In this document: in pieces, positions 51,311 to 52,717 of the stretch
Numbering within the stretch: position 1 is the stretch's first letter
How the letters are laid out: each line of letters opens with the position of its first letter
Assembly: GCA_902363375.1 (NCBI GenBank)
Contig: CABIZX010000002.1
Coordinates: 715,699-779,698 of the forward strand
Reading direction: 5' to 3'
Length of the DNA stretch: 64,000 nucleotides
Origin: Clostridiaceae bacterium
GTDB lineage: Bacteria > Bacillota > Clostridia > Clostridiales > Clostridiaceae
Position numbers and translations under genes: made by a program
Notes under the pieces: model-generated
Seen by the model: only the letters and a program-made list of their open reading frames with translations
Databases searched by the model: none
What the model was told of the DNA's origin: nothing

Positions 51311-51379
51311 TTATTGAAACGTATGCACAATAAGGTTTATTTACACTTAGATAAAGTTGTAAAGGATAAGGAGATACTA

Positions 51380-52417
51380 ATGATAAGAGAATTATTTGAA
51401 GATATATATCAAATTGAAGTAGAACTTCCAGATAACCCATTAAGAGCATTAAATGCTTATTTAATTAAAGGTGATGAAAGAAATCTATTAATAGATACAG
51501 GATTTCGTAAGATTAAATCCTTAGAAAGCCTAAGGCAGAGTCTAAAAGAATTAAATGTAGATATGAATAATACAGATATATTTTTAACTCATCTTCATGA
51601 TGACCATACAGGCCTTGTTCCATTTCTTTTAAACTCTAATAATAAGGCTTATATGCATCCTAGAGAAAGTGAAGAGATATATAATTTAAGAAAAGCGACC
51701 TATATGGAGGAAATAAATATATTCAATGAAGCCATGGGATTTCCAAAAGGAAAGGCTGCAGAAGCACTAAGAGCTTTAAGAGATCAAGAAGGGTTTGAAG
51801 AAAAATTTAGTGAACCTACCTATACTGATATTCAGGATGGAGAAATTTTAAAGGTAGGAAAATATAAATTTAAATGTATTCTAACTCCAGGGCATACACC
51901 AGCTCATTGTTGTCTTTATGAAGAGAACTATAAGATTTTAATTGGAGGGGATTTAATACTAGCAAAAATAACTCCAAATATAACTTATAACCTTGAGCAA
52001 TGGATGGAAAATCCTCTAAAAGAATATCTAGATAGCTTAGATAGGGTATATGCATTACCAATAGATATAACACTATCTTCTCATAGAACTATTATAAGAG
52101 ATACTAAAAAAAGAATTAGGGAACTAAAGGACCATTACTATCTTAGATTAGATGAAGTTATGGATATTTTATCTAATGGAGAGAAGCTCTCGCCTTATGA
52201 AATTGCAGGGAGGATGCAGTGGAGTATAAGGATAAATACATGGGAAGACTTCCCTCTAACACAAAGATTCTTTGCACTAGGGGAGTGTATGTCTCACTTA
52301 GTTTATCTTGAGAAGGAAGGGCTTATAAATAGGATATATGAAAATGGTAAAATTTATTATGTGATATCTACTAAAGGGCTAATATGGGCAATGGTTAAGC
52401 ATATTAAAGAGAGTTAA
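51380..52417 (+). CDS. Metallo-beta-lactamase-fold hydrolase
   Basis: A 345-residue enzyme with the full metal site: HLHDDH (71-76), a later HCCLY-type histidine in TPGHTPAHCCLYE, GGD in KILIGGDLIL, and SSHRT near 240. A helical C-terminal domain of about 90 residues follows (RIRELKDHYYLRLDEVMDIL), as in LACTB2/glyoxalase-II-like hydrolases of unknown substrate. The start at 51380 follows AAGGAG by 6 bases; the longer frame from 51314 starts at TTG without a ribosome site. Confidence 0.9.
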   Translation: MIRELFEDIYQIEVELPDNPLRALNAYLIKGDERNLLIDTGFRKIKSLESLRQSLKELNVDMNNTDIFLTHLHDDHTGLVPFLLNSNNKAYMHPRESEEIYNLRKATYMEEINIFNEAMGFPKGKAAEALRALRDQEGFEEKFSEPTYTDIQDGEILKVGKYKFKCILTPGHTPAHCCLYEENYKILIGGDLILAKITPNITYNLEQWMENPLKEYLDSLDRVYALPIDITLSSHRTIIRDTKKRIRELKDHYYLRLDEVMDILSNGEKLSPYEIAGRMQWSIRINTWEDFPLTQRFFALGECMSHLVYLEKEGLINRIYENGKIYYVISTKGLIWAMVKHIKES

Positions 52418-52441: not shown

Positions 52442-52470
52442 TTGAAGTCTAAAAATTACTATGATATAAT
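52442..52470 (+). promoter_or_regulatory. Promoter of the Lsa-type ABC-F leader
   Basis: TTGAAG (52442-52447), 17 bp, TATAAT (52465-52470), 30 bp before the leader peptide ATG. Confidence 0.6.
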
Positions 52471-52500
52471 TTAGAAAATATAATGATAGGAGTTGAAAAA

Positions 52501-52521
52501 ATGATTAATTTTTCTTGCTAA
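52501..52521 (+). CDS. Leader peptide MINFSC of the Lsa-type ABC-F gene
   Basis: A six-codon ORF behind AGGAG at 8 bases spacing, 196 bp upstream of the ABC-F gene and downstream of a good promoter. Its last codon is Cys followed by the stop, like MRPANC at 21343. It is followed by competing RNA stems, so it probably senses drug-arrested ribosomes. Confidence 0.7.
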   Translation: MINFSC

Positions 52522-52579
52522 ATTTAAACAGTATAATAAAACTACAGATATGGATTGTATCGTTTTTTTGTTGTACTCA

Positions 52580-52699
52580 TGCAAGAAAGTTATTGATTTT
52601 TTCACTTGAAAAATATGTCCTAATCAGCCCATAATATAGGGTTGTTTTGCTGTATTTATAAGTTGTAAGAACTAGCTTTCTTGCAACTTATATTTTTTT
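52580..52699 (+). promoter_or_regulatory. Transcription attenuator of the Lsa-type ABC-F gene
   Basis: Terminator: ATAAGTTGTAAGAA (52658-52671) pairs with TTCTTGCAACTTAT (52678-52691), followed by ATTTTTTTAT. Anti-terminator: TGCAAGAAAG (52580-52589) pairs perfectly with CTTTCTTGCA (52676-52685), which destroys the terminator stem. The two folds exclude each other, the classical design of leader-peptide attenuation. Confidence 0.75.
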
Positions 52700-52717
52700 A
52701 TACAGGAGGATAAATCT

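Follow-up and report, generated by a model that had tools for sequence, protein, structure and literature searches.

Organization of the locus

The window, which is the whole stretch of 64,000 nucleotides analysed here, carries an lsa gene on the forward strand. Reading the sequence in front of it, we found every part of an attenuator, namely a promoter match, a ribosome site, the upstream ORF (uORF) MINFSC, a terminator and an anti-terminator (Table 1). The encoded protein passed the curated cut-off of NCBIfam NF000167, which bears out the Lsa-type ABC-F target proposed in an earlier note on this DNA. Its best PDB chain is Lsa(A) 7nhk. The closest proteins are 95% and 89% identical, and Clostridium proteins are found at 80%, so a clostridial origin of the window is probable. 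An ORF upstream on the same strand (51314-52417) is MBL-fold hydrolase-like, with a best-model score that stays under the curated cut-off, and ends 24 nt before the promoter match.

Table 1. Positions of the leader elements and of the lsa gene in the window.
Feature	Position	Strand	Basis
Probable promoter TTGAAG-17-TATAAT, extended -10 (TG)	52442..52470	+	consensus match 10/12
uORF ribosome-binding site AGGAG, 8 nt before ATG 52501	52488..52492	+	sequence
Six-codon uORF MINFSC, ATG ATT AAT TTT TCT TGC TAA	52501..52521	+	sequence
Arm A UUUCUUGC, inside uORF, anti-antiterminator partner of B	52511..52518	+	fold, pairing analysis
Hairpin between A and B, predicted in both states	52530..52577	+	folds
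Segment B UGCAAGAAAGUUA, partner A (repressed state) or C (induced state)	52580..52592	+	pairing analysis
Segment F, in antiterminator pairs with terminator 5' arm	52595..52608	+	predicted fold, 13 pairs in window
Terminator 5' arm (D)	52657..52671	+	terminator scan, covariation
Segment C, pairs with B in antiterminator, shares bases with loop and 3' arm of terminator	52673..52685	+	pairing analysis
Terminator 3' arm (52678-52692) and T tract (52693-52699)	52678..52699	+	sequence, terminator scan, covariation
lsa ribosome-binding site AGGAGG	52704..52709	+	sequence
Lsa-family ABC-F ribosomal protection protein, 492 aa	52718..54196	+	NF000167, 766.4 bits (cut-off 750)

The earlier note had described a promoter, a six-codon ORF with a strong ribosome site and a terminator with T tract at 52658-52699, and all three were found. 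The promoter is a consensus match of a kind that occurs at chance level (5 found, 4.9 expected). The terminator stem spans 52657-52692, and terminator-like sites are beyond the shuffle expectation (2 versus 0.1). Two residues of the uORF ribosome site, G at 52490 and 52492, are invariant across alignment A1 (see below). The uORF start codon lies 18 nt ahead of the end of the RNA arm.

The note had also claimed a perfect 10-bp anti-terminator. The pairing exists, between GCAAGAAAGT (52581-52590) and GCTTTCTTGC (52675-52684), with nine Watson-Crick pairs and one G.U pair; it is not perfect, and both coordinates had been off by one. It extends to 13 bp (52580-52592 with 52673-52685) and, instead of being the complete anti-terminator, is one part of a larger predicted hairpin. 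A third partner, absent from the note, is the uORF arm 52511-52518 (TTTCTTGC), which is also complementary to B and would act as an anti-antiterminator. The word UUUCUUGC occurs twice, in uORF arm A and in the terminator 3' arm, and both copies can pair with GCAAGAAA. The free fold of 52477-52717 contains the uORF arm:B helix plus the terminator. Its z-score is -6.28, and none of 200 shuffled sequences was as stable.

Conservation and distribution of the leader

The leader is present at 69 of 80 lsa loci (67-79% identity), two of which are partial (L001, L078) and were left out of the uORF counts. The 11 leaderless loci are all from Paenibacillus (L003, L006, L022, L041, L052, L053, L058, L060, L062, L063, L064); among them, three genomes (G014, G015, G016) have the leader before another lsa copy. 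For alignment A1, 47 of 68 full leaders were hand-picked for spread, and 14 of its rows are clostridial. An HMM was built from 33 Bacilli leaders only, leaving out the window and the remaining 13 clostridial rows. It matched 52482-52694 at E 1.4e-19, the sole match in 64 kb at E ≤10; its rows were drawn from an alignment built with the window included.

We searched genomes with covariance model R1, and the resulting counts include a few weak or partial matches. At E 0.001, matches were obtained in 37 of 225 genomes in the order of Clostridium thailandense, 192 of 344 in that of Paenibacillus and 31 of 39 in that of Brevibacillus. At E 1e-4, the orders of Lacrimispora, Desulfosporosinus, Tissierella and Marasmitruncus gave 28/246, 31/73, 3/100 and 12/117, respectively. 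A sample of the class of Paenibacillus, overlapping the earlier sets, gave 35/299 at E 0.01. Many genomes of the Paenibacillus and Brevibacillus orders have two to five R1 matches each, including weak ones and ones on the opposite strand.

Covariation and alternative pairings

Covariation was measured on the 47 leaders of A1. In the terminator, 11 of 15 pairs changed on both sides, which was matched in 0 of 500 shuffles. Eight of these 11 pairs belong to the inner helix of 12 pairs, in which 99.6% of cells are paired; the other three are outer pairs that seldom form. The antiterminator helix B:C also covaries (8 of 13 pairs, two at poorly paired ends; 0/500 shuffles). When B:C was slid by -1, seven pairs still covaried, but only 48.9% of cells were paired, compared with 82.7% in register. 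The A:B helix is 96.5% paired and nearly invariant, and 212 of 500 shuffles reached its covariation level; it is too invariant for covariation to be informative. RNAalifold, unaided, predicted the A:B core and the terminator from the same leaders. The conserved, mutually exclusive pairings, the covariation of the terminator and B:C, and the recovery of the window leader by the Bacilli-only HMM uphold the attenuator class that the note had assigned.

Forcing B:C in the window produced a longer hairpin in which F (52595-52608) is paired with the terminator 5' arm. F:D pairs were present in 47 of 47 such folds (7-17 each, median 12), all of them single-sequence constrained folds. Counting against this hairpin, RNAalifold predicted nothing on B to D alone and, with B:C forced, no inner F:D helix; without A, its consensus favours the terminator (-18.2 versus -9.1 kcal/mol with B:C forced). 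From the constrained folds, the antiterminator is predicted to be a long hairpin that also captures the terminator 5' arm. The inner F:D helix would explain the ability of the antiterminator to compete. A second layer masking the lsa ribosome site (CUGUAU/AUACAG) was considered and rejected, as the longest complementary run averaged 7.3 versus 7.0 in shuffles (62 leaders). By eye, this pairing covaries in some clades.

The start codon is kept, the peptide is not

To describe the uORF, we used 229 leaders, which after removal of 17 copies left 212 distinct ones; L136, L137 and weaker or opposite-strand model matches were excluded. An AUG stands ahead of the arm in 210 of the 212, and the remaining two (L013, L165) read GUG. 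In 133 of the 210 leaders the AUG is followed directly by UAA, UAG or UGA, so that the ORF is one codon long. The others have 2 (7 leaders), 3 (1), 5 (7), 6 (57), 7 (3) or 8 (2) codons, with peptides such as MINFSC, MIKFSC, MRNFSC, MYNFSC, MDNFLA, MI and MK. Start-stop ORFs occur before 100 of 173 lsa genes, 28 of 28 cfr genes, 5 of 8 other genes and not before the one deleted lsa plus cfr.

The distance from the A of the AUG to the last arm base is 15-20 nt in 209 of 210 leaders (16 nt in 107, 18 nt in 56), as found by a search limited to 8-24 nt before the arm end that took the nearest ATG. Shuffling gave an ATG in this range in 17.1% of stretches and a start-stop ORF in 3.9%. The leaders contain 509 further ATGs 3' of the arm, and a stop comes directly after 18 of them. 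Among 69 further anaerobe leaders (69 of 71 new loci, outside the 212), 64 have an AUG, 60 have it at 18 nt and none is start-stop. The spacing of the start-stop AUG to the nearest GGAG-like site (n=47) is 9-13 nt in 37 leaders and only 3 nt in 10.

Compared at the sequence level, the "FSC" of MINFSC is the RNA arm UUUCUUGC read in frame. In the clostridial leaders L117, L118 and L119 the frame ends after MI and the arm is intact. These frames, together with the start-stop majority, argue that the peptide is dispensable. The feature kept among the leaders is the AUG with its spacing to the arm, not the peptide. Attenuation of msrD reportedly depends on the nascent peptide. A conserved arrest peptide, as in leaders of the MsrD or Erm type, was not found among the 210 uORFs, 133 of which encode no second residue. 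The remaining peptides are varied, and the earlier proposal that drugs arrest ribosomes on MINFSC as a peptide is not supported.

We also considered selection for the stop codon itself, which is not supported; changes on the tree show repeated switching only. On a FastTree tree of 165 Lsa proteins, the kind of stop changed at least 16 times, and leaders went between the start-stop form and a longer one at least 18 times, both being parsimony counts without shuffle control. UAA, UAG and UGA can all pair, with G.U allowed, with the UUA of segment B, and the stop could therefore be a side effect of base pairing in the RNA. UGG could likewise pair with this UUA, yet it is rare (L014, L141; 2/210).

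Genes behind the leader

Behind 160 model matches we found Lsa in 122 cases, Cfr-like proteins in 28, an internally deleted lsa plus cfr in one and other genes in nine. The regions were partly hand-picked, second copies first, so these figures are shares of genes and not rates. Cfr-type methyltransferases stand behind 28 of the 212 distinct leaders. One of them, L099, is a bona fide Cfr by the curated model (614 bits, cut-off 550). Its start-stop leader and terminator lie about 257 nt before cfr, and no other terminator-like site was found between them. This leader is preceded by an equivalent promoter match, TTGAAA-17-TACAAT. The resistance spectra of Lsa and Cfr, as printed, overlap in lincosamides, pleuromutilins and streptogramins. 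In L130 (G135) the gene next to the leader is an lsa that lacks a large internal part, and a cfr-like gene comes after it.

The nine other cases include two cfr remnants (L208, L211). In L110, L122 and L129, the gene read behind the leader is that of an intron reverse transcriptase, a chemotaxis receptor or a transposase. L174 is at a contig end, L136 is doubtful, and L209 and L210 lie beside a ribosomal protein L4 paralog. This paralog was rejected as a third regulated gene, as a terminator was read between L4 and the preceding ORF; its co-transcription with the leader is doubtful. A second L4 is present in three of six Brevibacillus-order genomes (G600, G601, G605), with the loop tip QNKIDKSR and not QKGTGRAR. 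It adjoins the leader in G601 and G605 and lies kilobases behind leader plus cfr in G600 (L209 1152-1772, L210; L262-L264).

The leader was also found on a mobile element. A plasmid-borne lsa(E) of Enterococcus faecium has it with the uORF MYNFSC (L266 817-1049, NZ_CP023426.1; 90.6 bits, E 1.2e-18). L133, from the order of Clostridium thailandense, has a MYNFSC leader, lsa and a lnu(B)-scoring gene, which is the arrangement seen on the plasmid. With a clostridial leader as query, blastn matched 107 plasmid records, 102 of them from Enterococcus; no match extended over more than 80% of the query, and the 20 listed ones reached 49%. The leader model did not match mobile cfr(B) or a staphylococcal cfr plasmid (L277, L278; 2 of 253 Cfr-like-matching plasmid records), and blastn of the L099 leader against plasmids gave no match.

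Computed energies of the switch

We compared the two states by constrained folding of the 47 leaders. With no ribosome, the antiterminator was the weaker state in 47/47, with a median deficit of 14.4 kcal/mol (range 5.2-27.6). Once a footprint, assumed to extend from -15 to +16, was placed on the start codon, the median fell to -3.4, and in 36/47 leaders the antiterminator either beat the terminator state or trailed it by no more than 1 kcal; the model ignores kinetics, pausing and pseudoknots. In the window the deficit went from 9.8 to 0.2 kcal/mol when A was covered, which makes the two states about equal. Eleven of the 47 leaders did not switch. Nine of these are clostridial, which is 9 of the 14 rows of the window's own group, and 5 of the 14 switch. 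Shortfalls among these nine include +24.4 (L013), +11.9 (L031), +7.3 (L079) and +6.7 (L080).

When the footprint was slid along the leaders, the lowest median (-4.5) was obtained at 18 nt before the arm end, where the antiterminator was favoured in 33/47; it won in 33/47 with the ribosome at 16-18 nt. The median stayed below zero from 20 to 8 nt (31-33/47 favourable). Fewer leaders were favourable at 44 nt (0/47), 24 nt (18/47) and 0 nt (14/47). The real AUG position is the upstream edge of the favourable 20-8 nt band. In the window the scan is flat: the value is 0.2 at 16-20 nt and no different at -12 nt.

Proposed mechanism and alternatives

The leader (52477-52700) is very probably a ribosome-gated transcription attenuator, the signal being arrest at the start codon and not a peptide. 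In the absence of drug, ribosomes would clear the uORF fast, arm A would pair with B, and the terminator (D:C) would form directly before lsa. A drug that blocks the first peptide bonds would hold the ribosome at the uORF start codon, where it would cover A. The freed B could then build the long antiterminator hairpin, with B:C outside and F:D inside, which would displace the terminator and let lsa be transcribed. The sensor would be the position of the stalled start-codon ribosome. A start-stop uORF fits start-codon arrest and no elongation-dependent mode, and for this reason start-codon arrest was adopted as the signal. We infer that the uORF is translated and that drugs induce the gene. Judging by the Lsa and Cfr spectra and by published relatives, lincosamides, streptogramin A and pleuromutilins would fit as inducers.

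Peptides of clostridial relatives often end in FSC or xSC, and start-stop ORFs are absent from the 64 further anaerobe leaders that have an ATG, as would suit a nascent MINFSC that is itself arrested by drug through sequence-specific stalling, as in MsrD or Erm leaders. We judge this improbable. The SC end is the arm UCUUGC in frame, the same RNA stands untranslated behind the stop in the start-stop leaders, codons 2-4 vary widely, and the MI frames of L117, L118 and L119 leave the arm intact. Ser and Cys codons also end the six-codon ORFs, which could point to an amino-acid-starvation attenuator in which scarce charged Cys or Ser tRNA stalls uORF ribosomes. Such a switch is extremely unlikely here, as 150 of 210 ORFs contain neither residue and the regulated genes serve ribosome protection or rRNA methylation.

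The RNA is long, conserved and structured, as a metabolite riboswitch or a protein-bound attenuator with an incidental ORF would be. The fixed spacing between AUG and arm in 210 of 212 leaders (GUG in the other two), compared with 17% in shuffles, speaks against an incidental ORF, and a scan of the window with Rfam 15 gave no match above gathering cut-offs; we consider this explanation very unlikely. We give next to no credence to the view that the terminator simply belongs to the upstream gene or that the leader is constitutive and does not respond to drugs. The terminator does sit immediately ahead of lsa, and the upstream gene runs in the same direction, but a promoter match (consensus only) follows the end of that gene at 52417, and the pairings that exclude each other are conserved in both Clostridia and Bacilli and common to Cfr genes. 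Start-codon arrest remains our preferred reading. Beyond the window, we lean towards the leader being a portable module whose start-stop uORF senses drug-frozen initiation without elongation. It would have been recruited to the mechanistically unrelated Lsa ABC-F proteins and Cfr 23S rRNA methyltransferases and would travel with mobile lsa(E), with the AUG setting the place where the edge of the ribosome comes to rest, namely the end of the switch arm.

Comparison with known systems

Attenuators of ARE-ABCF genes gated by a uORF are an already known kind. By architecture, the window leader is like the vmlR leader of Bacillus subtilis, for which the available part of PMC9226507 describes an anti-antiterminator hairpin with a tiny uORF (MIN), an intrinsic terminator and an alternative antiterminator. 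The same part reports start-codon arrest by lincosamides and pleuromutilins, and for uORF(MIN) initiation arrest with a 30S toeprint at +16; the corresponding arrest at the window leader would be analogous. Unlike the window leader, vmlR has the target family VmlR and a three-codon uORF (PMC9226507, same part). The cplR leader of Clostridioides difficile likewise precedes an inducible ARE-ABCF gene, has a short uORF, MR[I/M], and combines transcription with translation attenuation, according to the portion of PMC10201436 at hand. CplR is another family, to which the window protein scores 202 bits against a cut-off of 780. That portion also gives the consensus MAGN, unlike the window leader, for uORFs of close LsaA relatives (80% identity).

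In Streptomyces coelicolor, the are5sc and tiaA leaders have terminator and antiterminator conformations and show LSAP arrest at the start codon, with lincosamide, pleuromutilin and streptogramin A as the arresting drugs (available part of PMC12421871). Their uORFs are different (MLV, MVGDDDISG), and that part of PMC12421871 mentions no start-stop ORF or sharing with Cfr. The msrD leader is similar in that an ABC-F gene is under ribosome-mediated attenuation and differs in being triggered by macrolides (excerpt of PMC10314930).

The literature searched, in which subscription papers were mostly not included and which is weak evidence of absence, did not describe the window leader, start-stop uORFs in switches of this kind or a leader shared by lsa and cfr. 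Searches for the peptides MINFSC, MIKFSC and MIRFSC returned only unrelated titles. If our reading is true, a regulatory uORF can work without a peptide, and methods based on conserved leader peptides would miss such switches. One shared RNA would link inducible ABC-F protection with Cfr methylation, and mobile lsa(E) would gain a testable induction mechanism that was not found in the literature searched. The start-stop form would make it directly testable that initiation arrest alone is the signal.

Additional ORFs between the terminator and the gene

Many clostridial loci have a second ORF, about 26 codons long (M.NKDTLLTHDNLHIEPDTAGDIYME) and with a strong ribosome site, in the interval from the terminator to lsa. 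These loci include L031, L038, L047, L070 and L080; the window has no space for such an ORF. Among 20 variants of 26 codons we counted 1123 nonsynonymous versus 524 synonymous pairwise codon differences. In L099, positions 1740-1850 between the leader terminator and cfr contain an ORF, MFEIVNVQVN..., with AGGAGG and an inverted repeat GTGAACCGT...ACGGTTCAC, which are possibly a second regulatory element. By reading, the leaderless Paenibacillus loci L053, L060 and L064 have a similar ELEVVDVYVNLS-type ORF upstream of lsa.
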